Shown in pieces: positions 788 to 53,086 of a DNA stretch of 64,000 nucleotides. This stretch comes from Clostridia bacterium (lineage in GTDB: Bacteria; Bacillota; Clostridia; Christensenellales; CAG-314): positions 62,001-126,000 of the forward strand of contig JAQVMT010000003.1 of NCBI GenBank assembly GCA_028703495.1, read 5' to 3'. The notes below the pieces were generated by a model, which was given only the letters and a program-made list of their open reading frames with translations, did no database searches and was not told where the DNA came from. The position numbers were made by a program, and so were the translations under genes. Position 1 is the stretch's first letter. Each line of letters starts with the position of its first letter.

Positions 788-2089
788 ATGGCAAGAGATA
801 TTCAAATTGTAAAAACCACAAAGGACTATAATGTGGGGTTTAAAAATGTTTGTGCTTATGCGAGAGTATCCAGTGGCAAGGAAGCAATGCTTCATTCTCT
901 TTCTGCACAGGTAAGCTATTATCAAAACCTTATTAAAAAGAATAGGGAATGGAAATTTTGCGGTGTTTATGCTGATGAAGCCTTAACGGGAACGAAAGAA
1001 ACTCGTGAGAAGTTTCAACTAATGCTCCAAGAATGCAAAAACGGAAATATCGACCTAATAATAACAAAATCGATTTCTCGTTTTGCCAGGAACACTGTAA
1101 CGCTACTTGAAACGGTGCGAGAACTTAAAGATTTAGGTGTAGACATCTATTTCGAGGAACAAAACATTAACACAATGTCAACCGATGGGGAATTGATGCT
1201 GACTATACTCGCATCGTATGCGCAAGAGGAGAGTTTATCGGCAAGCGAGAATATGAAATGGAGGATAAAAAAATTATTTGAGCAGGGATTGATTCCTTCG
1301 GGACGATTGATTGGATATAAATATAAAGAGGGCGCTTTTGAGCTTATTCCGCACGAAGCAGAGATTGTAAAAAGGATTTATAAGATGTATCTTGGCGGTA
1401 TGGGGAAAACTAAAATAGCCAAACAGCTAAATAAAGAAGGGGTATTGACAAGAAACGGACGAACTTGGAGTCCTATGACCTTGCATTGGGTTTTAACAAA
1501 TTATACTTACACGGGAAATCTGCTGTTGCAACGAACATATACGGAAAACCATTTAACAAAAAAGACAAAGCAGAACAAAGGTGAATACCCGATGTACCAT
1601 GTCGAAAATACGCACGAAGCTATCGTTAGCGTGTATGATTTTGAGGCTGTGCAGAAGGAGATGGCAAAACGAGCAGAATTGGTTAAACAAACAGATTCCT
1701 CGCCCAGGAAATGTTATCCATTTACTGGAAAATTACGGTGTGCCGTCTGCGGTAATTATTGTATTCGCAGAACCACGGTTACAAGAAAGATGTGGATTTG
1801 TCACAATTACACTGTCTATGGTAAAGAAAAATGTGCATCAAAACAAATACCTGAGGAAACGCTCGAAAAAGTAACGATTGAGGTTATAGGCAGCTTGGAT
1901 AATTTGAGCGAAATTGATTATATTGATGTTGATAACGGCAATAAGCTGACATATGTGTTTCTGGACGGAAGAAAAGAAGAACGGATATGGAAAGACCGTT
2001 CACGCTCCGAATCCTGGACGGAAGAAAAAAGGCTTGCTTTCGGAGAAATGAGAAAAAGGAGGAATGCAGAATGCCGCAAGTTACAATAA
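788..2089 (+). CDS. Large serine recombinase 1
   Basis: Start ATG 788 follows AAAAAGGAGG. The 433-residue product has the resolvase catalytic domain at about 20-165, with the nucleophile context YARVS (Ser28) and the arginine motif SRFARN. A Recombinase domain follows at about 180-290 (PSGRLIGYKYK...IYKMYLGGMGKTKIAKQLN), then a zinc ribbon near 310-360 (CAVCGNYCIR...C). Such enzymes cut and exchange DNA through a covalent phosphoserine and integrate or excise mobile elements. Its end overlaps the next recombinase by 19 bases, so the two are translationally coupled and probably work together. All catalytic signatures are intact. It is shorter at the C-terminus than recombinase 2 and lacks that protein's long coiled coil. 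Confidence 0.9.
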   Translation: MARDIQIVKTTKDYNVGFKNVCAYARVSSGKEAMLHSLSAQVSYYQNLIKKNREWKFCGVYADEALTGTKETREKFQLMLQECKNGNIDLIITKSISRFARNTVTLLETVRELKDLGVDIYFEEQNINTMSTDGELMLTILASYAQEESLSASENMKWRIKKLFEQGLIPSGRLIGYKYKEGAFELIPHEAEIVKRIYKMYLGGMGKTKIAKQLNKEGVLTRNGRTWSPMTLHWVLTNYTYTGNLLLQRTYTENHLTKKTKQNKGEYPMYHVENTHEAIVSVYDFEAVQKEMAKRAELVKQTDSSPRKCYPFTGKLRCAVCGNYCIRRTTVTRKMWICHNYTVYGKEKCASKQIPEETLEKVTIEVIGSLDNLSEIDYIDVDNGNKLTYVFLDGRKEERIWKDRSRSESWTEEKRLAFGEMRKRRNAECRKLQ

Positions 2090-3657
2090 TACCAGCAACA
2101 AGGGATTTGCACACGGGCATAGCGAAGAACGGATTCTATAAGAAAAAGGTGGCTGGTTATGCCAGGGTATCAACCAATAACGAAGAGCAGTTGACTTCCT
2201 ATGAAGCTCAGGTTGATTATTATACGAAATATATTCAAAGCCGAGCCGATTGGCAATTCGTTAAGGTATATACAGACGAAGGGATATCTGCAACCAATAC
2301 AAAACACCGTGATGGCTTCAACGAAATGATAAGCGCCGCTCTTGAAGGGAAAATTGATTTGATTGTCACAAAGTCGGTAAGCCGTTTTGCAAGAAACACT
2401 GTCGATAGTTTAACAACTGTGCGGAAACTGAAAGATAAGGGGGTTGAGGTTTATTTTGAAAAGGAAAACATCTACACTCTTGACAGCAAGGGCGAATTGC
2501 TGATTACAATTATGAGTTCGCTTGCACAGGAAGAAAGCCGCAGTATTTCCGAAAATGTAACATGGGGTAAAAGAAAAGCTTTTGCAGACGGTAAAGTATA
2601 CCTTCCGTATAAAAACTTCCTTGGGTACAGAAAAGGCGAAGACGGATTGCCTGAAATAGTACCGGAGGAAGCGGAAGTTATACGGCTGATTTACAGATTG
2701 TTTTTCGAGGGGAAAACCACTTATTTGATAGCGGAAGAATTAACTTCCCGTGGTGTACCAACACCTACGAAGAGGCAGTCCGAGTGGCAGAGCAGTACAG
2801 TGGAGAGTATTCTTTCCAATGAAAAATATAAAGGTTCGGCTCTTCTGCAAAAGAAATTCACAACAAGTTTTTTGGAAAAGAAAATGAAGGTGAACGAGGG
2901 TGAAGTTCCTCAATACTACATAGAAAACAGTCACCCTGCAATCATAACACCCGGCGAATACGAGATGGCAAGGGCAGAGTTGCAACGCAGAAAAGGGATA
3001 GGGCATAAGTATAGCGGAAAAAACATTTTTGCTTCCAAAATCGTATGCGGTGATTGCGGAAGCTATTATGGTCCGAAAGCGTGGCATTCAAATAGTATAT
3101 ATTATAAAATTATCTATCGCTGCAATTCCAAATATAAAACCGATAAACACAAATGTGGGACTCCCACTTTGACGGAAGATACGATTAAAGACGCATTTAT
3201 CGAAGCAATAAATAAATTGCTTATTGGCAAAACACAATTAATTGATGATTGTCGAATTATGCAGACAATGCTGTCGGACACATCGGAACAAGAGATAAAA
3301 TTGGGCGAGAAGAATGATGAACTTGACATTGTTCGAGGATTGCTTGCAAAATGCATTGAAAGCAATTCAAAGGATGAACAGGACCAAGAAGCATTTTGGC
3401 AGAAATACAATTGCTTGGAGGAGCGCTATAACACTATAAAAGTAAAAATCGAAAAGTTGTATGACGAAATTAAAATTAGAAGACAAAAGGCAGAAAACAT
3501 TGGAGCTTTTATGTTTGAGCTAAACGAGCGTGATGGAATAATTGATACTTTTGACGAGCGGCTTTGGTTTGTTACAGTCGACCGAGTGGTTGTAAACAAG
3601 GGAAAAGGACTGGTATTTGAATTCAAAAATGGTATAAAAATAGAAGTCGCACTATGA
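2071..3657 (+). CDS. Large serine recombinase 2
   Basis: The best start is ATG 2071, preceded by AAAAAGGAGG; the frame is open further upstream but without a ribosome site. The roughly 528-residue protein has the resolvase domain (YARVST, catalytic Ser34; SRFARN), the Recombinase domain (about 180-290), a zinc ribbon (CGDCGSYYG...C...C), a coiled-coil segment (about 390-470) and a C-terminal tail. This is the full architecture of phage and ICE-type large serine integrases. It forms an overlapping pair with recombinase 1. The next gene on the right is convergent, so this ends the + strand set. Confidence 0.92.
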   Translation: MPQVTIIPATRDLHTGIAKNGFYKKKVAGYARVSTNNEEQLTSYEAQVDYYTKYIQSRADWQFVKVYTDEGISATNTKHRDGFNEMISAALEGKIDLIVTKSVSRFARNTVDSLTTVRKLKDKGVEVYFEKENIYTLDSKGELLITIMSSLAQEESRSISENVTWGKRKAFADGKVYLPYKNFLGYRKGEDGLPEIVPEEAEVIRLIYRLFFEGKTTYLIAEELTSRGVPTPTKRQSEWQSSTVESILSNEKYKGSALLQKKFTTSFLEKKMKVNEGEVPQYYIENSHPAIITPGEYEMARAELQRRKGIGHKYSGKNIFASKIVCGDCGSYYGPKAWHSNSIYYKIIYRCNSKYKTDKHKCGTPTLTEDTIKDAFIEAINKLLIGKTQLIDDCRIMQTMLSDTSEQEIKLGEKNDELDIVRGLLAKCIESNSKDEQDQEAFWQKYNCLEERYNTIKVKIEKLYDEIKIRRQKAENIGAFMFELNERDGIIDTFDERLWFVTVDRVVVNKGKGLVFEFKNGIKIEVAL

Positions 3658-5963: not shown

Positions 5964-6733
5964 TGTTCATCTCCTGTACACGCAACAGCCGACAATTTCG
6001 ATTCCGGCTCTGTCGCAGTGTCGTGATTGTTCTCCGTTTGAGTTATGTCTTTTATGGAATATATCGCATACCCATCGAAAATATTGATTTGCATTGACTG
6101 CTTATGTTCGTTAAAGGGCAGTCCAAATTGATTCTGCCACTCTGCTGGAAATACAGGAGTTCTTGAAATCTTCGGTTTTTCGCCATCCACAAATGATTTT
6201 TGATATACTTCGGTGGCATTCAAGTCAAAAGCTATCATGTATTTGCCTTTTGAATGAATCAATTTACCGAGGAGCTTATACCTGTATTTGGGATTCCAGT
6301 CCATCAAAGAAAAAATCTTTGCGAAAAAAAGTTTGCAAGTGATAGGACGTGGTTTCTTTTTACCATTTGCTGTATTGCACCACATAAATGAATCCCGTGC
6401 GTTTTCTTCACAAGGGAGGAGAGCAAGTATTTTGTGACTTCGATTAACCAGGATCTGAGCGAAGTCAGATTTTTGAAATTTTGACAAACACGCTGCATTG
6501 ACATAAAACTTGCAGTCATTGAATGTTACGGACGGCTCTCGTAAATGAGCAAAGAATTCTTTTCTTACGACTTGAAAGTCATTAATATCAAATTCATCGT
6601 TCATATCCAGCATTTCATCGCCTTTAGATATAGTTGGAGCCATACTGTCCACTTCAATATTCAGTGTTGGCTCGAATTGTTGATTTGCAGAATCGTCTGC
6701 GATTTTTATAGCCGTCTTGTTTTCAAATTCCAT
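5960..6733 (-). CDS. Stand-alone recombinase-associated domain protein (copy 2)
   Basis: 257 residues; ATG 6731-6733 overlaps the stop of the recombinase gene (TAATG) with AAGGAG upstream. Residues about 50-190 match the C-terminal domain of recombinase 3 closely (V-R-K/S-E-FF, S-V-T-F / A-I-S-F, SLMDWNP, YR/YK-LLGKLI / RIIGTLF, then F-D-x-N). The C-terminal PAEWQNQFGLPFNEH also parallels PEEWTTSFGKEYYLHE in the recombinase. No catalytic motif is visible. The gene probably arose by duplication of the recombinase tail. Function unknown. Confidence 0.65.
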   Translation of the reverse strand: MEFENKTAIKIADDSANQQFEPTLNIEVDSMAPTISKGDEMLDMNDEFDINDFQVVRKEFFAHLREPSVTFNDCKFYVNAACLSKFQKSDFAQILVNRSHKILALLPCEENARDSFMWCNTANGKKKPRPITCKLFFAKIFSLMDWNPKYRYKLLGKLIHSKGKYMIAFDLNATEVYQKSFVDGEKPKISRTPVFPAEWQNQFGLPFNEHKQSMQINIFDGYAIYSIKDITQTENNHDTATEPESKLSAVACTGDEQ

Positions 6734-8628
6734 TATTCATTTACTCCTTGTGTAATACCTTTTAATTCGGTTTGTATGTAATCTTTTAGTTTGTCAAAAC
6801 TTGTAATTTGTAGTTTTTTATCCGTTTCGAAGAATTGACCTTCTACTCGCAATCTCCAGTCGGACTCGCTTTGCGTACTTAATGTCATAAGCGTTTGTTC
6901 ATGGAGGTAGTATTCTTTTCCAAAGCTCGTTGTCCATTCTTCCGGGATTGCGCGTATTCGTTTGCCAGAGGGGGTGAGGGGTTGAAGAGTTGCGCCACCA
7001 CCTGAGTTATCTTGTTTCGGTATAACATACGATTTGAAAAACGCTTCAGAGTTCTGGCTGTCAAAAAGGTATACAATCTCACTTTTGTTTTCAAAAAGTG
7101 TTCCGATAATTCGGTACTTACAGTCTGGGTTCCAATCCATTAGGGAGTAGATAATATCTATGAAAGCTGCCGCTGATATTTCCTTTGGTTGATATTCGCC
7201 GTTTTCCAACTTGGAGCAATAGATGCCTTGTCGATTGTCTTTGCTTGTGGAACGTATGGCAAACATCCTTCGTAAAGGGTTTATCAGTAATTCAATATAA
7301 TTTTTCTCCTTGAATTTTTTTACGCAAACACTGCTTAATTTTATCTTCTTATTGCTGAATGAGATTGCTGGGTTACGTTTTGAATCAAAGAACTCTGAGC
7401 GTGTGATTTCAAAGCCACGCATATCAAAATCGCCTTCGTTAACCTCAATTTGAATATCTTTTGTTTCGTCTGATTGTTGTGTTTGACCGTCATTAACGAT
7501 AGAGCATACACTTTGCGCTGCTTGATAATAATCGGGTTCTTTGAAGCCTGCCCAACGTGGGTTGACAGTAACAAAACCTTTTAGAATCCCGCTGTCAATT
7601 ACTTTTAATGATGGTAAATATGATTTATTGCCGTATTTGGCATTATCGAGCATTCTTTGCACTGCAATAAAATCATCTCGTGAGATTATTGCTTCGTGAT
7701 GATTTTTGTAATGGCTTTGTGGTCTGTCGCCATTGTTTCTGCGTGAAAGGTGAGTGTGATAGTTTGGAGTAAAGGTTTTTCGGGTTACGACATCACCGCA
7801 GTGCCGCTCATTTCGGAGAATCTGTATAATACCTCCTGGTGTCCATTTTATGTTTCCAAGATAGGAACGTCGGCCAAGAGAGATGAGTGCATCTGCTATC
7901 TGCTGAGTGGAATAACCATAGAGATACATATAGAAGGCAAGTTTCACTGTCGGGGCTTCATCTTGGTTAATAATTAAATTTCCGTCGGTATCGTGAGAAT
8001 ATCCTAACAATTTAGGAGTGAGCGGGATACCGTTGTCTAAACGCATACGAAGCGAAGTTTCCATACTACGGCTTCGAGTGTGTGATTCTTCTTCTGCCAT
8101 TGTTGCTTGAAAAGAAAGGGCCATTTGCGAATCATCATTCAGCGAAAAAATACACTCAGATTCGAAAAAAACTCCGACGGGTGGCTTTAACTCTGCTAAA
8201 TCACGAACCATGCCTATGCAAATTAATACGTTACGGGCAAAACGGGATACGCTTTTGGTAATTATTAAATCTATTTTGCTTGCTTTACAGTCAGCTATCA
8301 TTTGATTAAATTCATTACGGTGGGCGAGAGATGTACCACTTATGCCTTCGTCCGCATATATTTTGACAAGAGTCCAGTTTGGATGGCGGACTACAAAGTC
8401 TTCATAATACTTTTTTTGTAATTCAAAAGAAGTGGTTTGCCTGACATCATCGGTAGACACACGCACATATATGGCAACCCTTTGATTTACGTCGTCATCA
8501 TAATAGTCCGCTTGTTTTTTTGAAGCTGGAGTATACTCGTAGTTTTCAGGATCGATTTCCACCCGCATTCTTCTACGAGTTTTTTCTTTTTCTTTTTGTT
8601 TAATTTCTCGTTTTTCGGTATCTATCAT
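6733..8628 (-). CDS. Serine recombinase 3 with an extra C-terminal domain replacing the zinc ribbon
   Basis: 631 residues, start ATG 8626-8628 with GAGGC upstream. After a lysine-rich N-tail come a resolvase domain (VAIYVRVST, catalytic Ser58; SRFARN present) and a Recombinase domain (about 205-310, LLGYSHDTDGN...GYSTQQIADAL). The zinc ribbon and coiled coil of typical large serine integrases are missing. In their place are a linker (GFVTVNPRWAGFKEPDY) and the roughly 170-residue domain that also occurs alone in the next two genes. I recall this architecture in other Clostridial recombinases, so it is a recurrent, poorly characterised class. The gene lies 15 bases after a degenerate paralogue, which suggests a heteromeric pair. 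Confidence 0.85.
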   Translation of the reverse strand: MIDTEKREIKQKEKEKTRRRMRVEIDPENYEYTPASKKQADYYDDDVNQRVAIYVRVSTDDVRQTTSFELQKKYYEDFVVRHPNWTLVKIYADEGISGTSLAHRNEFNQMIADCKASKIDLIITKSVSRFARNVLICIGMVRDLAELKPPVGVFFESECIFSLNDDSQMALSFQATMAEEESHTRSRSMETSLRMRLDNGIPLTPKLLGYSHDTDGNLIINQDEAPTVKLAFYMYLYGYSTQQIADALISLGRRSYLGNIKWTPGGIIQILRNERHCGDVVTRKTFTPNYHTHLSRRNNGDRPQSHYKNHHEAIISRDDFIAVQRMLDNAKYGNKSYLPSLKVIDSGILKGFVTVNPRWAGFKEPDYYQAAQSVCSIVNDGQTQQSDETKDIQIEVNEGDFDMRGFEITRSEFFDSKRNPAISFSNKKIKLSSVCVKKFKEKNYIELLINPLRRMFAIRSTSKDNRQGIYCSKLENGEYQPKEISAAAFIDIIYSLMDWNPDCKYRIIGTLFENKSEIVYLFDSQNSEAFFKSYVIPKQDNSGGGATLQPLTPSGKRIRAIPEEWTTSFGKEYYLHEQTLMTLSTQSESDWRLRVEGQFFETDKKLQITSFDKLKDYIQTELKGITQGVNE

Positions 8629-28259: not shown

Positions 28260-28973
28260 TTAGGCTTTATCGACTTTTGCGGGGCGATTTATGTGGGCAA
28301 AGGAGAAGAAGTATTTGAACTTCGTCATAAGTACTCCGATTACGCCCGTGCAAAGAATGCCGTTGGTTACCAGGTTGATTCCGATTATCGGAAGTCTGCC
28401 TAAATAGTATAACCAAAACGACTTAGTGCTGCCGTTTTTATACAGATAATAAAACCATAATGAGAAATTGTTTATTGTGGATGCAATCAAGAAACACAAT
28501 ACCATCGAGATCCAAACAGTAATTGCAACCTTTTTCCACTCCAAACGGTGCGTTGCGTTGCGGCTTTCCATATAGGCGAGATTTGCCCCGGTCGCGTTGT
28601 CGTTCTCGTAAGGGGCGGAGCCGTCGGACTTATCTGCGTTTTGCGGTTTGGATTTGGTTTGCACTGTCTTGGAAATGCGGTTAACCGCCATATAGACAAG
28701 ACCGGGAATAAGACCTATCAGTGCGGAGGAAAGAGTAATCAGCGGTTGAAAGTCGCCCTTGGGTGCGATAAAGTGACCGAGAAGGTCGCCCAATCCGCCG
28801 ACGATTAGCCCTGCGATAGGTCCCAAAGCAATACCTGCGGTAAATGCCGGAATATACACAAAAGACAGAGCCTTGTTGGGCGCGAGCATAATTGTGAAGG
28901 TGTTGCAAACAATTGCGAGTGCGGTCAGTACGCCACAATAGGCGATGTACTTGATACTTGATTTAATTGACAT
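28260..28973 (-). CDS. folT: ECF transporter S component for folate (FolT-like)
   Basis: The start is ATG 28971-28973 with GGGAGG upstream, giving 237 residues; a longer frame runs through the riboswitch leader and is not credible. About six membrane helices are visible, with the ECF S-component N-terminus (YIAYCGVLTALAIVCNTFTI) and a glycine-rich loop (AGLIVGGLGDLLGHFIAPKGDF). A hydrophilic insert of about 40 residues interrupts the middle. S components bind the vitamin and join shared EcfA/A'/T modules, which are not in the window. The THF riboswitch upstream supports folate as substrate. Confidence 0.85.
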   Translation of the reverse strand: MSIKSSIKYIAYCGVLTALAIVCNTFTIMLAPNKALSFVYIPAFTAGIALGPIAGLIVGGLGDLLGHFIAPKGDFQPLITLSSALIGLIPGLVYMAVNRISKTVQTKSKPQNADKSDGSAPYENDNATGANLAYMESRNATHRLEWKKVAITVWISMVLCFLIASTINNFSLWFYYLYKNGSTKSFWLYYLGRLPIIGINLVTNGILCTGVIGVLMTKFKYFFSFAHINRPAKVDKA

Positions 28974-29014
28974 AAAAAATGCCTCCCAAAACTTAGTTTT
29001 GCGAAAGCTCCTTT

Positions 29015-29034
29015 GAAAAAACCGATATTCGGTT
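29015..29034 (-). terminator. Riboswitch expression-platform terminator
   Basis: On the - strand AACCGA-ATA-TCGGTT is followed by TTTTTC, directly downstream of the THF aptamer and about 40 bases before the folT start. Ligand binding probably favours this terminator and stops transcription. Confidence 0.7.
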
Positions 29035-29172
29035 GTAGCAACGGACGCAGCCCGATACCGCAGACATTCTCGAGCAAACCCGACAAAATCGAATTTGCGC
29101 CGAGGTAACCATCTTTCGTGTACAGGCAACTTCCCATCCTGCACCACTTAACGCACCGAACCTACTTTGCAC
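29035..29172 (-). promoter_or_regulatory. THF (tetrahydrofolate) riboswitch
   Basis: The - strand contains the conserved THF-I aptamer blocks in order: AGTAGG near the 5' end, GTGCGTTAAGTG (about 29145-29156), GGATGGGAAGTTGCC, ACGAAAG, GGTTACC, and the 3' GCGTCCGTTGC (29038-29048), with GCAA/TTGC able to close P1. A loop insertion lengthens the aptamer relative to the shortest members. It controls the downstream folate transporter. Recognition is by pattern; a covariance-model search would settle it. Confidence 0.8.
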
Positions 29173-32141: not shown

Positions 32142-32702
32142 ATGACTAAGAAAATATTGTTATTGACAATTATTGTTGCAATTGCCGTTTTGTATGCGGG
32201 TTGTGTGGCGATCGGCAGTGTTGCACCCCTTGTCGAGGTTATCGAAAGCGGCAGTGCGGCGACGAATAGCGGCAGTGCGGGAATAGCCGTTTCCTCTGAC
32301 GTGATCAACGGATTCGACGAATTTTGGGCGGCGTACAACGACTCCAATATTTCTGCCGACAGCATTGACTTAAATGTAGAGGTTTGGGCGATTGCCGAGC
32401 TGTATTCGCCCGCCGTTTACGACTCGATTACGTCGGGAATGAATATATCCGACTTTATGGCGACGGCTAAGGGAGCGGCGGTTGTAAAAGTTGTTGAAGA
32501 GGAGATCTTTAACGTCAAGGAGCTTATAAAAGACAAGGGATTGGATTTAGAGTACAAATACGATTACAGCGTGCTGTTTTCTGGCTTTGCGGTAAGAGCG
32601 AGCCTGTCCGAGCTTCTTATTCTCATGGACATGGAGGAGATAAAGGATATTCATGTTACGGCGGAGTATGATATGCAGACTGTGTCGCCGATGTGGAGAT
32701 GA
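32142..32702 (+). CDS. Subtilase propeptide lipoprotein (5' part of a split S8 peptidase gene)
   Basis: The start is ATG 32142 with GGGGGAAAG upstream, giving about 186 residues. A signal peptide ends at the lipobox YAGC. The rest resembles the inhibitor I9/propeptide of subtilases (YKYDYSVLFSGFAVRASLSELLILMDMEEIKDIHVTAEY). It stops at TGA 32700-32702, which overlaps the ATG (32699) of the catalytic frame as ATGA. Either one base has been lost and this is a broken gene, or propeptide and catalytic domain are made as two coupled proteins. Confidence 0.7.
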   Translation: MTKKILLLTIIVAIAVLYAGCVAIGSVAPLVEVIESGSAATNSGSAGIAVSSDVINGFDEFWAAYNDSNISADSIDLNVEVWAIAELYSPAVYDSITSGMNISDFMATAKGAAVVKVVEEEIFNVKELIKDKGLDLEYKYDYSVLFSGFAVRASLSELLILMDMEEIKDIHVTAEYDMQTVSPMWR

Positions 32703-35700
32703 GCGCGATTTGGGGAACCCTGACTAACGCCGATTCCAACGGAATATTGACAAACGGAAGCGGGTATCGGGGCGAGGGAATGTTCGTGGGTGTTGTAGAT
32801 TCGGGAGTGGATTACAGACACGAAGCGTTTTCCGTTATGCCCGAGATGGCATCTGTAAATGCCGAGGACGTTGCCGAGCTTACGAGCTTGCTTTACGGCA
32901 ACAACGTTTCGGACGAGTTGAGCTTTGCGGCGGAGAGCTTTTACTTCAATCAAAAGGTGGCTTTCGGTTTCGATTACGCCGATTTGGATTCGGACATAGT
33001 GCCGAGTTTGACTGCGGCTAACAGCTACGGAATGTCGCACGGCACGCACGTTGCGGGAATTATTGCGAGCGACAGCGATGTAATTACGGGAGTTGTTCCC
33101 AACTGTCAGCTTGCCGTGTTCAAGGTGTTTAGCGACGAGAACGGAAGCTGTGTGGGAACGGACATAATCGCGGCTCTGTCCGATGCCTTGATATTGGGCG
33201 TAGATGCCTTGAATATGAGCGTGGGATCCCCGTGCGGCTTTTCCAAAGCATATTATGATTTTGCGTTTAACGATGAAATATACGAAAGGGTAACCGATTG
33301 CGGAATAGACTTAATTGTGGCGGCCGGCAACAACTTCAACACGGCTTACGTTTCAAACAGAAAGACTACCTATTCGGACACGCCCGACAATGCGGTTATC
33401 GACTCACCGGGATCGTTTACCTCGACAATGGCGGTGGCAAGCATAAATACTTTCACGCAAAACTACATTCTTATCGATGAGGAAAAGGTGCTTTTTTTGG
33501 GCGCGTATACTTCCGAGAAAACCGAACGCGACTTTTTGAGTGAGATTTTGGGCGAAAGCGGTGAGCTTTCCGCCGAATACGTCCACATTGCCGACGGCGG
33601 TTGCCAAGCGGCTTATGAAAATGTCGACGTTTCTGGCAAGGTAGTGATCGTGGAAAGGGGCGGCGGCGTTTCCTTCCAAGACAAACAGAGCATAGCAGCC
33701 GAACACGGCGCGATCGCCTGTTTGATTTACAACAACATCGAAACCACAATTTACATACAGATTCCAGTGCAGGACATTCCCACGGCGATAGTCAGCCGAA
33801 CGGTGGGACTTGCGGCTAAGGAAAAGGGAAGCGGAAGCTTTGCCGCCTCGACCGAATTTTGTGCGGGGCCGTTTATGTCGGATTTTTCGAGTTGGGGACC
33901 GATTTCGGATCTGTCGCTCAAGCCCGACATCACGGCACCCGGCGGTATGGTCTATTCTGCGGTATGCTCGGACGGCAACAATGCTTATGAGGTTTACTCG
34001 GGAACAAGTATGGCTACGCCCAATCTTACGGGCGCGGCAACTGCGGTCAAACAGTATTTAAAGGAGAGATATCCGCAGGCGACCTACAAGCAAATCTCGC
34101 AAATGACGGCGGAGCTGTTGATGAGTACGGCGGATTTGGTAACCGACATCAATGACGCGCCTTATTCTCCGAGAAAGCAAGGCGGCGGCTACGCTAATTT
34201 GAGCCAAGCCATAGGTGCGAACGCACGCCTTTCGGTGAGCGGCTCCAAATACCCCAAACTTTCGCTGGGTGACAACAAGCTCAAAACGGGAAGATACACG
34301 CTTAACTTCGACCTTATGAATATGAGCGACGAGGAATTAACCTATGACGTGAATATGGTCGTAATGACCTGCGGTTTGGGCTCGGATAACTACACGATAA
34401 CGACCGAGGATCATGTTTTCGACGACTATATTTACACGGTTTGCGCCGATTACGTCCCAACAGATGGAAGTGTAACCGTCGGAGCGAATGCAACGTTGAC
34501 GATTACGGTAATTTTGGAGCTGGGCGAAACCGCAAAAGCGTATTTGGACGACTACTTCCAATACGGCTCGTATGTCGAGGGTTATGTAATTCTCGATTGC
34601 GGCGACGAGGAGCAAAAGCTCAATCTGCCCTACCTTGCGTTTTACGGCGATTGGTGTAAGGCTCCTATATTCGACTATACCTGCTTCGACGAGGAAGAAG
34701 AATATGTCTATCCGATTACGCTTTCCGGCATTTACAGCAACAGCTATCTTTTGGCTTTGGGCAACTATCACTACGGACTGCCCGACGGCGAGGAGCCAAT
34801 AGAGCCAAACGCGGACAGAGCGGCAATTTCGGCGTATTCGCTTTCGATTGCCAATTTGTACGGCATTTACTACGGATTGCTACGAAACATCGACTACTAC
34901 TCATTGACAATTATGGACGTCAATACAAAAGAGGAGTACGTTTGGGGAACCATAGACCATGTCAGAAAGGCAAACTATCAGCTGGGTGCGACACTTGTCA
35001 CAATCGGCTTGAGTCCCTTTACAGAAGGTCTTTACAACAATCAAGAGCTGCTCATCACGATGGAAGCGCATATGGATTACTACGGCGGCGAGAGCGAGCG
35101 TAGCAAGGTTGAAATGCCGCTTTATGTCGACTTCGAGGCTCCGACCGTCGTGCAATCGGAGTTTAGAACCGAGAACGGCAGGACGCACATAGACTTCGAG
35201 GTGTTCGACAATCAATATCCGATGAGCTACAGCGTTTTGGATTACAGCGGTGACGAGCCTGTGTCGCTTACCACCTACGCAGTGCCGTTTAGGAATGCAG
35301 TGAAGAATTCGTCGAACTACATTTCTGCGGACGTAACCGACTATATCGACGCGATTAAGGCAGGCACGGTTTACTTCGTGTTTGAAGATTACGCGATGAA
35401 TTCGACCATTTTCAAGATTAACGGAAACGCGGATTCGAACGATTTGCAGAACGAAACGGATTTTGCAAACGGCGATGTTATTAAAAGCACTGTTTCGGAG
35501 CGGGAATACGAGCTGTATTTAAACGAGAATTTGAGTTTCGATAATAAAATCGCGCTCAACACTTTCAGAGAATGCGGTGGACTTGATAAGATAACGCTTC
35601 CTCAAACGGTGACTGCCGTGGAAAGGCGTGCGTTTGAAAGCTGCTACAGCCTTGTCGAGGTCGTCCTCAATCGGAGCGTCGAGAGCATAAGCGAAAGAGC

Positions 35701-37210
35701 CTTTTTCGGCTGCTCCTCGCTCCGCTACATAAATACAGAAGATACCGCATTGAAGTCAATCGGTGCATCGGCTTTCTACAACGGACGGAAGCTGACAGTA
35801 ATGGAACTGCCCGAAACCGTCGAGAATATCGGCGATAACGCCTTTGGCAAGGGGGTTTTGCGGCCGTTGACCATTTACGCGACAACGCCTCCGACGGTCG
35901 GAGCCAATGGTTTTGGAACCGAGGAGCTTTGTATTTACGTCAAAGCCGCCGTTGTTGAAGAATACAAGCTTAGCTTTGGCGTTTATGCCGATAACCTGTC
36001 GAGTTTGGACGACTTTATCCTTCAAGACGGCAAGCTTATTGCCTACAAAGGAACGGGAGCGGTTTCCCTGCCCAAGGGTATTAGGTCGATCGGCGCATAT
36101 GCCTTTTCCCAAAGCGGAGTTACCGCGGTCGAGTCCCTTTGCGACCTGACCGAGGTTTGCGACAACGCATTTGCCGATTGCGACAAGCTGGCGTTTGTGT
36201 CGCTCCCCGACAGCGTGAAAGCTATCGGAAGCCGTGCCTTCGCCTCACAGAACTCGACCGAGGTTGAGCTTAACTCGCTCCTGCCGCCTGCGATTCGGTC
36301 GGACAACTTCGACGGCGTACCCGAAGACTTTGTCGTGAAGGTGCCGATCGACAGCGCGGAATACTACGCAAACGACGCGGATTGGGCGAAGATTGCCGAT
36401 TCTGTGGAGATCATCAATCAATTTACCGTGGTTGACGGCGTTTTGACGGCGTACATGGGCACGGACGAACATGTTATCATACCCGACGAGGTGGTAACTA
36501 TCGCCCAAAGGGTGTTCGAGGACAACGTATTCATTCAAAGCCTAACTTTGGGCGCGAACGTCCAAACGATTGAGCAGTACGCCTTTGCCGATTGTGTCAA
36601 TTTGCAGTCGGTCGAGTTTAACGACGGCTTACAAAGTATCGGTTACGGTGTTTTCAATGGTTGCGAAAAGTTGGAAGCGATAGCCTTGCCCGACAGTCTT
36701 ACAGTTTTGGGCGGTTATTGCTTCAACGGTTGTGTAAGCTTGACCACGCTGGTAATGAGTCCCAACATTGAGATTATCGAATACGGCACGTTCTACAACT
36801 GCTATCTGCTCCAAGACTTCGAATTACCCGACAAGCTGACCGCTATCGACGGATCGGCGTTCTTCAACTGCAAATCGCTCACCGAGATGGATTTGTCCGA
36901 AAACGTTTCCCACATCGGCTTTTTGGCGTTTCTCAATTGCGAATCGATGAGAAAGCTGACTGTAAGAGCCGATCTCGCAGGCACACGCAACGCTTTTGGC
37001 GGAATGACCGCTTTGGAGGAGCTTAATTTGTACGGCGATATCGGTCGTATCGGCTTAATCGAGGGTACCGGTATCGACTTTTCTGCGACCAAACTCAAGG
37101 AGCTTCATTTTTACGGCAACGTCGGCGACATCTACGGAAGCTCTATTTGCTGTAACGACTACCTCCGCAAACGCAGTCGCACTGCTTACATAATATCGAT
37201 ATACACTTGA
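32693..37210 (+). CDS. S8 subtilisin-like peptidase with BspA-type leucine-rich repeats
   Basis: About 1,505 residues from GTG 32693; ATG 32699 is equally possible. The catalytic triad is present: D36 (VGVVDSGVD), H116 (MSHGTHVAG) and S439 (SGTSMATP), with a PA domain inserted between H and S (about 250-390). An Fn3-like region follows (about 510-760), then many BspA LRR units (about 960-1480: KIGAxAF / CxxLxxVxLP patterns). This layout matches C5a-peptidase-like surface proteases. It has no signal peptide of its own; that lies in the preceding frame. The last 20 residues are basic and unlike an LRR end, so the 3' end may be truncated. Confidence 0.85.
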   Translation: MEMSAIWGTLTNADSNGILTNGSGYRGEGMFVGVVDSGVDYRHEAFSVMPEMASVNAEDVAELTSLLYGNNVSDELSFAAESFYFNQKVAFGFDYADLDSDIVPSLTAANSYGMSHGTHVAGIIASDSDVITGVVPNCQLAVFKVFSDENGSCVGTDIIAALSDALILGVDALNMSVGSPCGFSKAYYDFAFNDEIYERVTDCGIDLIVAAGNNFNTAYVSNRKTTYSDTPDNAVIDSPGSFTSTMAVASINTFTQNYILIDEEKVLFLGAYTSEKTERDFLSEILGESGELSAEYVHIADGGCQAAYENVDVSGKVVIVERGGGVSFQDKQSIAAEHGAIACLIYNNIETTIYIQIPVQDIPTAIVSRTVGLAAKEKGSGSFAASTEFCAGPFMSDFSSWGPISDLSLKPDITAPGGMVYSAVCSDGNNAYEVYSGTSMATPNLTGAATAVKQYLKERYPQATYKQISQMTAELLMSTADLVTDINDAPYSPRKQGGGYANLSQAIGANARLSVSGSKYPKLSLGDNKLKTGRYTLNFDLMNMSDEELTYDVNMVVMTCGLGSDNYTITTEDHVFDDYIYTVCADYVPTDGSVTVGANATLTITVILELGETAKAYLDDYFQYGSYVEGYVILDCGDEEQKLNLPYLAFYGDWCKAPIFDYTCFDEEEEYVYPITLSGIYSNSYLLALGNYHYGLPDGEEPIEPNADRAAISAYSLSIANLYGIYYGLLRNIDYYSLTIMDVNTKEEYVWGTIDHVRKANYQLGATLVTIGLSPFTEGLYNNQELLITMEAHMDYYGGESERSKVEMPLYVDFEAPTVVQSEFRTENGRTHIDFEVFDNQYPMSYSVLDYSGDEPVSLTTYAVPFRNAVKNSSNYISADVTDYIDAIKAGTVYFVFEDYAMNSTIFKINGNADSNDLQNETDFANGDVIKSTVSEREYELYLNENLSFDNKIALNTFRECGGLDKITLPQTVTAVERRAFESCYSLVEVVLNRSVESISERAFFGCSSLRYINTEDTALKSIGASAFYNGRKLTVMELPETVENIGDNAFGKGVLRPLTIYATTPPTVGANGFGTEELCIYVKAAVVEEYKLSFGVYADNLSSLDDFILQDGKLIAYKGTGAVSLPKGIRSIGAYAFSQSGVTAVESLCDLTEVCDNAFADCDKLAFVSLPDSVKAIGSRAFASQNSTEVELNSLLPPAIRSDNFDGVPEDFVVKVPIDSAEYYANDADWAKIADSVEIINQFTVVDGVLTAYMGTDEHVIIPDEVVTIAQRVFEDNVFIQSLTLGANVQTIEQYAFADCVNLQSVEFNDGLQSIGYGVFNGCEKLEAIALPDSLTVLGGYCFNGCVSLTTLVMSPNIEIIEYGTFYNCYLLQDFELPDKLTAIDGSAFFNCKSLTEMDLSENVSHIGFLAFLNCESMRKLTVRADLAGTRNAFGGMTALEELNLYGDIGRIGLIEGTGIDFSATKLKELHFYGNVGDIYGSSICCNDYLRKRSRTAYIISIYT

Positions 37211-37295
37211 ACTATTGAGTTTATGGCACGAGATTGCGAGTTCGTGCAACAAGGTTGGCAGTTCGGGTGAAATATAAAAGAACAAGGAGAGAAAA

Positions 37296-40236: not shown

Positions 40237-40749
40237 ATGAAAAAGATAATAATATTCGCATTAGTGCTTGGCGCGGCGATTTACGCGGCAGTGTTTTGCG
40301 GTTGCGTGAACAAAAACGCCGATATCGATGTTTTGATTGTTGAACAAAACGTGCGCGAGTTAGACTCCGAGGTCGATTTGAATGGACTTTTACTCAATCG
40401 AGAGGGTATCGTTTGCCAAACGCTTGACGAATCGGACGAGGTACGCGCAATCGTGCAAACCTCGGGTTGCGGACTTTACGAGAGGTATGCAAGGTCGGGC
40501 TTTTCGACCTATGCCGAATTTGTCGGTTCAGACGTCGCAATCGAACTCGAGAGCATTCTATTGGAGGAACAGAACCGAGTAAAAGCCGAAATATCTGCGG
40601 TTTGCGAGGCGGTTTTCAAGTACTCGTACACCTCTGTGTTCAGCGGCTTTGTCCGATTGTTTGATACTCAACGTGGATGCCGTCAATATGAGCTTGGGAA
40701 GCCCTGCCGGCTTTACCGAGGAATGGGGCGGCGAATCCAACTACGTTAA
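40237..40749 (+). pseudogene. Propeptide part of a broken second subtilase
   Basis: ATG 40237 follows GAGGAGATT. A signal peptide with the lipobox FCGC and a propeptide-like segment (KYSYTSVFSGFV) mirror the first subtilase (YKYDYSVLFSGFAV). After about residue 130 the frame becomes non-homologous, because it reads the catalytic-domain DNA out of frame. The DNA that should encode the catalytic Asp and His is absent. Confidence 0.75.
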
Positions 40750-42820
40750 TGCGATGTACGCGGCTTTGGAGGATTCGGGGATTGCGCTTTGCATATCCTC
40801 GGACAACAGCAATTCAACGGCTAACGTAAATCAAAGCGGCTATGTTTCGGCGTCAAATCCCGATTCGGGAGTCATAGGCTCGCCCTCGTCCTACGATGCG
40901 GCACTTTCGGTTGCAAGCGTCAACAGCTACTCCGCGGGCAACTTCACGGTCAACGGCGTAAGCTTCATATATAACGACAGTGTCAATTCGAACGGAGTGA
41001 CGCGGGATTTTGCGGCTGCTCTTTTGGACGGAGCGGATTCCTTCCGCGGACAGTACGTTTATGTCGGATCGAGTGTGGGCTATTCAAACTCGCTTGTTTC
41101 GGGGAGAATTGTATTGATAGAAAGAGGAGGCTCCTCATTCGAAAGTAAGCGCGACAATGCTCAAAAGAAGGGCGCGATCGGTATAATTATATTCAATAAC
41201 GTTGTCGGTGATTTGAATATGTCTATTCCCACCGAGGGTATCCCCGCTTGCTCGATAAGTCGCGAGGACGGCTTGTACCTGAAGGATTACTCCGAAGGCT
41301 TGCCGCGTGCGTTAACCATAAGCAAGGACGATTATTATTATGAAATATCCACGTTCTCGTCAATGGGTTGTTTGAGTGATTTGACTTTAAAGCCCGACTT
41401 ATCCGCACCGGGCGGTTCAATTATCTCCTCGGTGCCCACCGTGTTGAACGATATATATGCCGAAATGAGCGGTACAAGTATGGCTTCGCCCAACCTTGCG
41501 GGCATTTGTGCCTGTGTAAAGCAGTATGTGAAGGAGCGCTTCCCCGAGCTGACTCCCACCGAGCAGCGGGATTTGACCTATAAGCTGTTGATGAGTACGG
41601 CAGAGGTCGTTAGAGACAGCGCGGGAAATGTTGCAACGCCTCGAAAGCAGGGTGCGGGAGTTGCCGACATTCAAGCGGCGACTCAAACCGAGGTTTATCT
41701 TTCGGTGTCGGGAACCAATCGTGTGAAAATCGAGCTAGGCGACGACAAGAACAGAGAGGGAATTTATACGCTTCGTTTCGAGGTGGTTAACCTCGGCGAA
41801 TCGGCGCAGGTCTTCGATATAAGCGTGTTGACTCAAACCGAAAGGGTTGTTGACGGGCTGATTATGCAGTTGGCTCACGTCCTCGACGCAAAAACGGAAA
41901 TTAAGTCCGACGCGGAGTTAAACGGCAAAACCTTGACCGTCGAGGGCGGACAAACGGTAAGCGTTACCATAAGAATAACCCTAACTGCGGCGGATGTTGA
42001 GTATATGGAAGACAGCTTCGTCAACGGCGGTTTTGTCGAAGGCCTCGTCTTTTTGACAGCAAAGGGCGGCAATCCCGATTTGTCCCTGCCCTTTATGGGC
42101 TTTTACGGCGCGGCAAGCCTTGTTTCGATTCAATCTGATTCACTTCGCCACGTGGGAAAGTCTACCTTCGAGAATGCTTCAAGCTTAAACGAAGCACCGC
42201 TTGAAGGGTTGGAGTATATGGAGAGCTTCGCCTTCAAAAACACAGCGTTCGAGGTTGTAACCATTGGTGACAGTCTGCGAGTGGTCGGAGGCGATGTTTT
42301 CTGCGGCTGCAAAAAGCTGAAAGAAATCGACATCACGTCAAACGCAAATTTGTTCGATATCAATTTCCTTACCGATGTGGACTTTATCGTGACGCTTGCA
42401 AACGGATGTAGGAGCTATGAATACTCCGAGGGCATACTCTACGGCAAAACAGACGAGGGTGGTCTTGTGATTTTGAAGTCGGTGAGCTATGAAAACAGAG
42501 CACTTTTCGTCAAGGAGGGCGTTGTCAAAATTGCGGCAAATGCGTTTAGGAATAACGAGTATATCGACACAGTCGTTTTTCCCGAATCCCTTGAAGCGAT
42601 AGGCGCAAACGCGTTCTACGGCGTGAAGCTCCAACGTGTGGAGTTCAGAAGCCAAGATGCTCCCAAGCTGTATTCTACATACGACTCCGCGCGCACCATG
42701 CTTTATGCCAATTTTGTGGGCTACGCCTCCGAGCTTACCTACGAGCAAAAGCCCTTCATAATATGCAACGAAAATGCATCGTATAATACCTACGTATACC
42801 ATGCGTTCTTCAAGCGTTGA
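40649..42820 (+). pseudogene. Second subtilase lacking its Asp and His catalytic region
   Basis: About 723 codons. The frame enters S8 homology at NVDAVNMSLGSPAGF, which aligns with GVDALNMSVGSPCGF of the intact neighbour. It continues through a PA domain and MSGTSMASPN (catalytic Ser near 277), an Fn3-like part and a short BspA LRR tail. About 140-160 codons holding the catalytic Asp and His are deleted between the two frames, and the long middle region of the intact copy is also missing. It can have no peptidase activity. Its composition and codon use match the intact copy, so the loss appears recent. Confidence 0.78.
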
Positions 42821-42999
42821 GAGATTCAAAAGTCCTTCACTTTGCGCATACCGCAAAACACTATCGCGTTTTTTGGTCAAAAGCCTAAAAGCGCGATTTT
42901 TTAATGCGTCGCACTTGACACAATTGAGCGAATGATGTATGCTTTGATAAATCAAGGTGCTTAACGAAATCAAATCACAAAGCTGCGAACCGCAAGGCA

Positions 43000-43200
43000 G
43001 GCAAAAGCTGCAAACGGAAATCGTAAACGAAGATGACGTACAAAAGACACAGAAGTTTAATGGCAACGCACTACATATGTTAAACAAGGTTAAGGTTTAG
43101 GTAGGCAAAAGCTGCAAACGGACACCGCGAACGAAGATGACGTACAAAAGACACAGAAGTTTAATGGCAACGCACTACATATGTTAAACAAGGTTAACGA
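43000..43200. repeat. 105-bp tandem duplication
   Basis: The segment 43000-43095 recurs at 43105-43200 with few differences. It contains AAGCTGCAAACGGA, GATGACGTACAAAAGACAC and TATGTTAAACAAGGTTAA. Non-coding; it lies just upstream of the SDR gene. Confidence 0.75.
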
Positions 43201-43287: not shown

Positions 43288-44343
43288 ATGAAGTATGTAT
43301 TTATTACGGGAGCGCGCGGTGGCTTGGGCAGAGCGTGCGTAAAAGCGTTTACAGATGCCGGCTACACGGTATTTGCCGCAGATATTTCTCCGATTGACGG
43401 TGCTAACTCTCAACCTAATGTCACGAACTCGGGAGTTGGTGTAACGAACTCGGGAGTTGGTGTAACGAACTCGAAGCCAACAAATACAATCTCTCAACCT
43501 AATGTCACGAACTCGGGAGTTGGTGTAACGAACTCGAAGCCAACAAATACAATCTCTCAACCTAATGTCACGAACTTGGCAGTAGGTGTCACGAACTCGG
43601 GAGTCGGCGCCACGAACGAGGTTGGAGTAGCCTGTGCGGATGTCGGTAAAACGAAAGGGTGCGGACGACTGGTCGAGCTGATATGCGACATTACCTCGGA
43701 GGAGTCAGTGGGCGCAGCGGTCGCGCTTGTAGGGGCAACAACCGATCGACTTGACGCGGTGGTAAGCTTGGCAGGGACTGCGGCTATCGGTTCGCTTGTC
43801 GAAAGTGATGCGCAGGTGATGAAGACGGCTATGGACGTTAATCTTTTGGGAATGTATCGGACCTGCCGCGCCTTCTTCCCTCTTGTGAGGAGGGCGAAGG
43901 GTAGGTATATAAACATAAGTAGCGAGTACGGAGTATTGACAGCAGTGCCTTTTCACGGCTTTTATACTGCTTCTAAGCGTGCGGTCGAGGCATATTCGGA
44001 TTCGCTTCGGCGCGAAATGCTGTTTCACGACATCAAGGTCATAATAATCAGACCGGGCGCGTTCAAAACGCCTATGCAAAACGGAATCGGAAACCAATTC
44101 GACAGGCTTATTGGCACGACTGAGTTCTATAAATTGCCACTTTCTAAGATGAAAAGCTTGATGAGCGGCGAGCTAAAACGCGCCGCCGAGCCTCCCGTGC
44201 TTGCAAGGGCGATATTGCGCGCGGCGGAAGCCAAGCGGCCGAAAAGAGTATACCGCGTAAACAACAGCTTTAAAATGAAGCTTCTTACCGTGCTTCCAGA
44301 CGGCATTCAAGATAGAATCTTCAAGCGATTTATGCAAAAATAG
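43288..44343 (+). CDS. SDR-family oxidoreductase with a tandem-repeat insertion
   Basis: 351 residues, RBS GGAAAAG. The NAD(P)-binding TGARGGLG (7-14), the acidic D after strand 2, SLAGTA for the NAG motif, catalytic Ser in ISSEYG and Y226-x3-K230 define a classical short-chain dehydrogenase. Between strand 2 and strand 3 (about residues 42-113) sits a low-complexity insert of GVGVTNS and QPNVTNS heptads that classical enzymes lack; without it the length is about 280. The insert is a 21-bp DNA repeat kept in frame. It would form a surface loop near the cofactor. The substrate is unknown; the C-terminal part resembles SDRs acting on sterols or lipids. Confidence 0.82.
   Translation: MKYVFITGARGGLGRACVKAFTDAGYTVFAADISPIDGANSQPNVTNSGVGVTNSGVGVTNSKPTNTISQPNVTNSGVGVTNSKPTNTISQPNVTNLAVGVTNSGVGATNEVGVACADVGKTKGCGRLVELICDITSEESVGAAVALVGATTDRLDAVVSLAGTAAIGSLVESDAQVMKTAMDVNLLGMYRTCRAFFPLVRRAKGRYINISSEYGVLTAVPFHGFYTASKRAVEAYSDSLRREMLFHDIKVIIIRPGAFKTPMQNGIGNQFDRLIGTTEFYKLPLSKMKSLMSGELKRAAEPPVLARAILRAAEAKRPKRVYRVNNSFKMKLLTVLPDGIQDRIFKRFMQK
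43423..43617. repeat. 21-bp repeat array inside the SDR gene
   Basis: ACGAAC occurs at 43423, 43444, 43465, 43507, 43528, 43570, 43591 and 43612; every interval is 21 or 42 bases. The TCACGAACT core matches the intergenic array before recA (51335-51497). Confidence 0.85.
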
Positions 44344-50762: not shown

Positions 50763-51254
50763 GTGCAAAAGGATAAAATGGATAAGACATGGAAGGAAAT
50801 CGTCGCATTATTGGCGGCAAAAAACAACACGATTGCAATCGCCGAATCGCTTACGGGTGGTGCGGTGAGTGCGAAGCTTGTTATGGTCGCCGGTGCGAGC
50901 GAGGTTTATAAGTTCGGCTTGGTGACCTATTCAAACGCCGCCAAGCAGAAGTTTCTCGGTGTAAAGGAAAGCACCTTGCGAGACTTCGGAGCGGTAAGCG
51001 CGGAAACGGCGACAGAGATGGCGCAAGGACTGTTGCGGTTGGGTGCGGATTTCGCGTTGTCGACGACGGGTATCGCGGGACCATCTACCGATGAGGAGTT
51101 TCACGTTCCGTTGGGCAGAGTTTTTATCGGAACAGCCGCAAAAGACGGCGAAGCATTCGCCCGTATGTTCGATTTTGTCGGCGACAGAGAGCAGGTAATT
51201 GCACAAGCCGCAGCACAGTCGTTAAAAGAGCTAGCCTTGCTTTTGGGTCATTAA
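50763..51254 (+). CDS. pncC: CinA C-terminal domain / nicotinamide-nucleotide amidohydrolase PncC
   Basis: Start choice is uncertain: GTG 50763 has AGGGGGG upstream and ATG 50778 has AAGGA. About 163 residues. AIAESLTGGAVSAKLV, VTYSNAAKQKFLGV and STTGIAGP are the PncC hallmarks, with the Ser/Lys/Tyr-type catalytic region. It deamidates nicotinamide mononucleotide. The N-terminal MoCF-like half of full CinA is absent. It precedes recA, as in many Firmicutes where cinA and recA are neighbours. Confidence 0.88.
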   Translation: MQKDKMDKTWKEIVALLAAKNNTIAIAESLTGGAVSAKLVMVAGASEVYKFGLVTYSNAAKQKFLGVKESTLRDFGAVSAETATEMAQGLLRLGADFALSTTGIAGPSTDEEFHVPLGRVFIGTAAKDGEAFARMFDFVGDREQVIAQAAAQSLKELALLLGH

Positions 51255-51334: not shown

Positions 51335-51497
51335 GTCACGAACTAGCGACTTGGTGGCACGAGCTTCAGAATTGGTGGCACGAACTGACGACTTGGTGGC
51401 ACGAGCTTCAGACTTCACGTCACGAACTGACGACTTGGTGGCACGAGCTTCAGACTTCACGTCACGAACTGACGACTTGGTGGCACGAGCTTGCGAG
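51335..51497. repeat. 21-bp tandem array upstream of recA
   Basis: CACGA occurs at 51337, 51358, 51379, 51400, 51421, 51442, 51463 and 51484, exactly 21 bases apart. Two unit types, (GT)CACGAACTGACGACTTG and (GG)CACGAGCTTCAGACTTCA, mostly alternate. The array lies 180-350 bases before recA. Units are not separated by unique spacers, so this is not a CRISPR. Confidence 0.9.
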
Positions 51498-51680
51498 TAT
51501 GTGAACGATGGTCTAATACAAATAATGACCTTTCGGCGCGAACGCTTGACTTGACTGCACGAAGTTGCTAGCTAAGCTTCTGATGTGCGATTTGCTATGT
51601 AAAACACACTTGATTATTTGGTCAATGTAAATAAAAGCAATATTGAATCCCGATTGTAAAATGAAGGAGTAGGAGAGAAT

Positions 51681-52676
51681 ATGACAGACGATAAGAAAAA
51701 GGCTTTGGATCAAGCGATTTTGCAGATTGAAAAGCAATTCGGAAAGGGTTCCATTATGAAGCTGGGGGAGCAGAATATCAAATACGTCGATGTTATTCCG
51801 ACGGGATGCTTGACCTTGGATATGGCGTTGGGAATCGGTGGCATGCCGCGCGGAAGGATTATCGAAATCTATGGTCCGGAGTCTAGCGGAAAGACTACGG
51901 TCAGCTTGCACGTTATTGCGGAATTGCAAAAGAAGGGCGGAACGGCTGCTTTTATCGATGCGGAGCACGCTTTGGATCCAATATACGCCCGGAAGCTGGG
52001 GGTAAAGGTTGAGGATTTGTACGTTTCGCAACCCGACAACGGCGAACAGGCGTTGGATATTGCCGAATATTTGGTGAGAAGCAATGCGGTCGACCTAATT
52101 GTCGTGGACTCGGTTGCCGCACTTACGCCAAAAGCCGAAATCGAAGGCGATATGGGCGACACTCACGTCGGACTACAGGCGCGGCTTATGTCGCAGGCTC
52201 TTAGAAAGCTTGCGGCAATTATCAACAAGAGTAACACTTGTGTGATATTCATTAACCAATTGCGTGAAAAGGTCGGAGTTATGTTTGGTTCTCCCGAAAC
52301 GACTCCGGGAGGAAAAGCACTGAAGTTTTATGCAAGCGTAAGACTTGACGTAAGAAAAATCGATCAGATTAAGGACGGGCAAGAGATTACGGGCAATCGC
52401 ACCAAGGTTAAGGTTGTCAAAAACAAGCTGGCACCGCCTTTTAAGGTTGCCGAATTCGACATAATGTATGGTGTGGGTATTTCCCAATCGGGTTGTATTC
52501 TGGATCTTGCCGTCGAAAGAAACATAATCGAAAAAAACGGCGCTTGGTTTAGCTATAAGGGAGAAAAAATCGGTCAGGGCAAGGAGAATGCCAAGGCGTA
52601 CATCGAGAAAAACGACGAGTTCCGCCAAGAGGTGGAAACTCTCATTCGTGAGTGGAAGTCCGAAGAGGCTCAATAA
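51681..52676 (+). CDS. recA: Recombinase RecA
   Basis: 331 residues, RBS GGAGTAGGAG. Walker [10 protein letters not shown] (about 67-75), Walker [11 protein letters not shown], loop L1 around MSQALRKL, and [13 protein letters not shown]-type L2 (here [21 protein letters not shown]) are intact. RecA forms filaments on single-stranded DNA for homologous recombination and SOS induction. No LexA-type box is visible in the promoter region. It is the most conserved gene in the window. Confidence 0.98.
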
Positions 52677-52788: not shown

Positions 52789-52859
52789 GTTGTAATGCGC
52801 AGATTATGCGCATATTCGCTATTACGACTATTACCCTCGTCCAAAGAACTCAAGACGTA

Positions 52860-53086
52860 GTATAACTAACTAAGCACTTCGTATAACAAACTAAGCACTT
52901 CGTGCAACGGACTCAAGACTTTGTGTAACGAACTTGTACCTTCGCGCAATGAACCCAAGACTTCGTGCAACGGACTCAAGACTTTGTGTAACGAACTTGT
53001 ACCTTCGCGCAATGAACCCAAGACTTCGCGCAATGAACCCAAGACTTCGCGCAATGAACCCAAGACTTCGTGCAACGGACTCAAGT
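52860..53086. repeat. 21-bp tandem array downstream of recA
   Basis: Eleven units begin at 52860, 52881, 52902, 52923, 52944, 52965, 52986, 53007, 53028, 53049 and 53070. The consensus is G(T/C)(G/A)(T/C)AA(C/T)G(A/G)AC followed by (T/C)(T/C)(A/G)AGACTTC or a variant. Some units carry AATGAACCCA, the same core as the repeats around the pst operon. Confidence 0.9.

Follow-up and report, generated by a model that had tools for sequence, protein, structure and literature searches.

A 21-bp palindromic tandem repeat lies in frame within a short-chain dehydrogenase gene and a dusB gene of a clostridial genome

Results

The window, by which we mean the whole 64,000-nucleotide stretch of clostridial DNA analysed here, carries on its forward strand a short-chain dehydrogenase/reductase (SDR) gene (43288..44343) whose 351-aa product matches PF00106 (5e-34) and retains an intact glycine motif (TGARGGLG) and YxxxK motif (YTASK), in keeping with the earlier note's description of an SDR that is otherwise normal. 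Within this gene, on the same strand and in frame, a 21-bp tandem array occupies 43401..43631 and comprises ten clear units (43401-43610) followed by a degenerate eleventh, confirming the in-frame DNA repeat that the note had reported. The extent of the heptads, which the note gave as residues of about 42-113, is better set at about 39-114, and the two heptads quoted (GVGVTNS and QPNVTNS) belong to a series in which three unit types alternate: VTNSGVG, VTNSKPT, and NTISQPN. All eight ACGAAC starts in the open reading frame (43423, 43444, 43465, 43507, 43528, 43570, 43591, and 43612) agree with the claimed spacing of 21 or 42 bases, with successive steps of 21, 21, 42, 21, 42, 21, and 21 and no phase error. 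Tandem Repeats Finder (TRF) detected period-21 and period-63 arrays over 43419-43617, and a 63-bp higher-order repeat (43444..43569, forward strand) consists of two copies, 43444-43506 and 43507-43569, that are identical at 63 of 63 positions. Because these blocks do not differ at all, at least one expansion was recent relative to the divergence of the units. The two-unit pattern ACGAACT-N14-ACGAACT, with up to two mismatches, was matched 29 times in the window, compared with a mean of 0.55 and a maximum of 3 in shuffled sequences.

We compared the SDR with 12 homologues at 28–51% identity, six from the same family (L007-L012; the best, L007, is 50% identical across the part that matches) and six from other clostridial or related genomes in genome_contigs (L057-L062, 43–51%). 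The link between β2 and β3, measured from the aspartate ending β2 to the aspartate after β3, is 16–21 residues long in the 12 homologues and 102 in the array-bearing SDR, and none of the 12 contains the heptads. The earlier note would have taken the same heptad loop in distant orthologues, with diverged DNA, as a sign of an old protein feature, and none of these homologues carried such a loop. Relative to the best-matched homologues, the four with an 18-residue link (L007, L057, L059, and L060), the excess is 84 residues, or 252 bp, which is exactly 12 × 21. From this sequence comparison we infer, as the earlier note did, that the repeat invaded the gene; the nearest empty site, in a comparison that included one draft genome of the genus, is seen at about 50% protein identity. 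An AlphaFold2 model built on only six sequences (mean pLDDT 64) gives an otherwise recognisable SDR fold in which β2 (residues 26–32) and β3 (127–132) are in place with the extra segment between them, and residues 38–124 have a pLDDT of 25–30, below 50, and no secondary structure.

A search for the unit inside other genes, also suggested previously, identified dusB on contig C14 (C14:24828-26123), which encodes a 432-aa TIGR00737 protein. About nine units lie, in frame, after the barrel and ahead of the C-terminal helical domain. Here the array runs in the opposite orientation to that of the SDR and is read in a different codon phase, such that one and the same DNA unit yields HEVPSSC-like heptads in DusB and VTNSGVG in the SDR. 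Two unrelated proteins read a single DNA unit in two frames; the repeat is therefore one of DNA and not of a protein family, and an explanation at the protein level is excluded. The corresponding region spans 151 residues, as against 44–47 in 15 relatives from the family (+107), with about 23 of the 107 extra residues not recognisable as repeat, and in every other genome of the family with a dusB hit the match stops just before the insert. The AlphaFold2 model of DusB has low overall confidence (mean pLDDT 53); in it, residues 247–375, between the barrel and the C-terminal helices, are predicted with low confidence and 251–311 are all coil. The SDR and DusB inserts (about 84 and 107 aa) thus appear, from the predicted structures, to be disordered. 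A possible third in-gene site, C40:10810-10878, amounts to no more than a weak unit or two, within an open reading frame with no Pfam match, and was put down to chance; the sequence of a weak match in rsmG (C7:18115-18169) looks like normal coding DNA.

Most arrays lie between genes. The intergenic array that the earlier note had described before recA is real (51337..51504, forward strand; eight units with a 42-bp higher-order repeat) and sits between the end of cinA at 51254 and the start of recA at 51681. A second one, absent from that note, follows recA (52843..53086, forward strand) and contains about 12 units, including a 63-bp higher-order repeat in two identical copies. Two or three degenerate units form a short array on the reverse strand (37206..37267) between a serine peptidase open reading frame and the next one, and on contig C7 arrays occur between lepA and hemW (C7:15144-15245) and beside parA-parB (C7:26150-26270). 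Periods of 21, 42, and 63 bp characterise the SDR, dusB, lepA-hemW, and recA arrays, with both in-gene arrays at 21/63, while a period of 43 bp was found in two intergenic arrays (C7:26153-26264 and C44:137073-137221). Hence the step of 21 bp stems from the DNA unit itself and is not adhered to strictly between genes. The best unit-to-unit identity with the SDR array is 19/21 for lepA-hemW and 16–17/21 for the arrays 5′ and 3′ of recA and for dusB; on average, units from different arrays are identical at about 11–13 of 21 positions, a divergence suggesting that dispersal is old or in part convergent.

For the census we used a sequence-only three-unit model (R1), which gave E values down to 1e-14 in its own genome and, having been built from five arrays (SDR, recA 5′, recA 3′, lepA-hemW, and dusB), favours similar arrays and may miss diverged ones. 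The genome is a 93% complete draft in 54 contigs, of which the analysis covered, beyond the window, the stretches surrounding hits. All eight multi-unit arrays found sit on C7, C14, and C44 (345 kb, 16% of the genome); a clustering on these contigs is possible, but the search model was itself drawn from arrays on them.

The 21-bp unit combines an imperfect palindrome of 20 bp, CACSAACTNNNNAGTTSGTG, with one further base, and units follow one another head to tail. The repeat core given in the earlier note is corrected here to CACGAACT with the mirror arm AGTTSGTG. From 49 units we derived the consensus CACSAACTCGCGAGTTSGTG plus one base, with a 20-bp dyad; across these units, conservation is higher in the outer arms CACSAA/TTSGTG than in the centre, which differs between arrays. 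Most units have lost part of the dyad symmetry, and matches between paired columns of the 49 units were no commoner than after shuffling (smallest fraction 0.17), which gives no indication that an RNA hairpin is under selection. When repeated, the consensus unit is free of stop codons in all six frames, while the real SDR array is open in the coding frame and one antisense frame and has stops in the other four. The argument made previously that a 21-base unit equals seven codons and can expand without breaking the frame holds for both in-gene arrays, which are multiples of 21.

Another genus of the family (G001) also has short intergenic arrays of near-perfect palindromes, such as CATCAACTTGCAAGTTGGTG. 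They include arrays in the mnmE-mnmG spacer and ahead of parA, several fall in the mnmE-mnmG-rsmG-parA region, and some copies directly follow terminator-like hairpins. A family-wide palindrome pattern was in clear excess over its control only in the array-bearing genome (31 versus 5) and in moderate excess in G001 (10 versus 3), G003 (7 versus 1), and G004 (7 versus 0). Model matches in G022 (L064, G022:C26:10507-10745) were weak and proved to be a tandemly duplicated segment some 200 bp long, next to a tRNA-like sequence, and no 21-bp array. Concerning a phage or plasmid origin, there was no pattern match in viral_contigs and no blastn match in phages or plasmids.

Discussion

Taken together, we consider it probable, at roughly 82%, that the repeat is a dispersed palindromic minisatellite family whose arrays are mainly intergenic and have grown in frame within the SDR and dusB genes by local tandem duplication. 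One, two, or three units would be duplicated at a time, through slipped replication or unequal recombination, a mechanism that fits a genome with numerous further tandem duplications whose periods vary. Array lengths that break the frame would be purged by selection in genes and tolerated between them; that both in-gene arrays are multiples of 21 (n = 2) is suggestive of such selection on frame. Since the 21-bp unit length is a multiple of three and the consensus has no stop, an array growing in a gene does no more than extend a loop; the encoded peptide, which has a loop or linker position and a prediction of disorder, would be a by-product. We further infer that the repeat moved from intergenic DNA into genes and that its presence there is neutral; neither a mobilising enzyme nor an insertion footprint was found. 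Occurrence at two loci in two frames makes the DNA origin testable without ambiguity, and such growth would offer a simple route from DNA repeats to new protein segments.

A bolder form of this proposal, which we regard as unlikely though worth stating, holds that the repeat is a selfish tandem palindrome made compatible with genes by selection, its 21-bp length equalling both two helical turns and seven codons and its sequence being stop-free in six frames, so that it colonises coding and non-coding DNA alike and supplies conserved enzymes of the lineage with new disordered loops.

The units might instead be sites for a dimeric DNA-binding protein, with arrays maintained for regulation or chromosome organisation and the copies in genes either incidental or functional. 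The conservation of the arms above the centre, the dyad of the consensus, and the equivalence of 21 bp to two helical turns are consistent with this, as are the arrays that flank recA or lie near parA-parB and mnmE-mnmG in two genera. However, the dyad is degraded in most units and its partners do not covary, the 43-bp steps lose helical phasing, and no cognate protein was identified, all of which leads us to consider binding sites distinctly improbable. Two specific versions were rejected: the unit differs from the parS site TGTTNCACGTGNAACA, canonical copies of which were found separately at C7:23395 and 23625, and an origin-binding array is at odds with the location of dnaA on a different contig, C40.

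We give very little chance to a reading of the units as mobile REP/REPIN-type palindromes that depend for their movement on a REP-associated tyrosine transposase (RAYT). REP, BIME, and REPIN sequences are likewise short, mostly extragenic palindromes that at times cluster in tandem (PMC3116915, PMC3733652), but the repeat described here has a fixed 21-bp period in strictly head-to-tail arrays, lacks a GTAG or CGTC tag at the palindrome end in the 49-unit consensus, and is accompanied by no RAYT, the Y1 transposase family (PF01797) giving no match at E ≤ 0.01 in the 93% complete genome while control genomes were positive. Equally hard to credit is an RNA hairpin acting as terminator, attenuator, or mRNA stabiliser: the consensus dyad does have a 4-base centre, and the position of some G001 copies behind terminator-like hairpins would suit it, but the 49 units show no compensatory changes and long arrays inside genes would hinder translation. 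Finally, an old coiled or low-complexity domain of an SDR subfamily, with the DNA regularity following the peptide, would account for an array exactly in frame beside intact catalytic motifs, but is scarcely conceivable given 12 homologues devoid of heptads, identical 63-bp DNA copies, and the recurrence of the unit in intergenic DNA and, read in a different phase, in dusB.

Rickettsia and Wolbachia provide the best-known cases of palindromic repeats sitting in frame in conserved bacterial genes, there as single long elements. Rickettsia palindromic elements (RPEs) and Wolbachia palindromic elements occur in intergenic DNA as well as within the reading frames of conserved genes, whose proteins look functional (PMC10969869, PMC2229807, PMC3767692); an enzyme with an RPE can stay active (reviewed in PMC10969869, PMC2229807). 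The repeat is similar in being a DNA element that is present at several loci, in frame in unrelated genes, and absent from homologues. RPEs, however, are single insertions of about 100–150 bp with long stems in Rickettsiales, whereas the present repeat has a 21-bp unit, forms head-to-tail arrays, expands locally, and resides in a clostridial genome. By analogy, we describe it as working like an RPE without being a member of that group, from which element architecture and host lineage set it apart.

Bacterial minisatellites (VNTRs) share the in-gene tandem units divisible by three and the higher-order duplications, as in the intragenic repeats of Legionella (PMC2639597). The head-to-tail units, the periods of 21, 42, and 63 bp, and the identical 63-bp copies observed here conform to this type. 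Intragenic repeats are generally described as particular to one gene or protein family, whereas the present unit is common to unrelated genes and intergenic spacers. PARCELs are also tandem coding repeats with dyad symmetry in their DNA (PMC2996958), but they encode a conserved 25-residue amphipathic motif, unlike the 7-residue period found here, whose peptide changes with frame and is predicted to be disordered. Literature searches on 21-bp or heptad repeats yielded no precedent in this lineage; what is new is a 21-bp minisatellite form of in-frame palindromic repeats, in a clostridial lineage and in two unrelated enzymes.

Other features of the window

Directly upstream of the SDR gene, 42995-43197 is a 104-bp direct tandem duplication whose copies are 94% alike, and TRF returned about 20 rows of many periods in the window, indicating a genome generally rich in tandem duplications. 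The open reading frames at 32693-37210 and 40649-42820 show partial matches to SGO_0316-family serine peptidases and are possibly duplicated surface proteases. At the left end, several serine-recombinase-like open reading frames, recognised by eye from RVST/SVSRFARN-type motifs, lie within 788-3657 and 6733-8628, suggesting an integrated element. A THF riboswitch (RF01831, 60.9 bits) occupies 29037-29171 on the reverse strand, upstream of and overlapping the start of a membrane-protein-like open reading frame (28260-29147).
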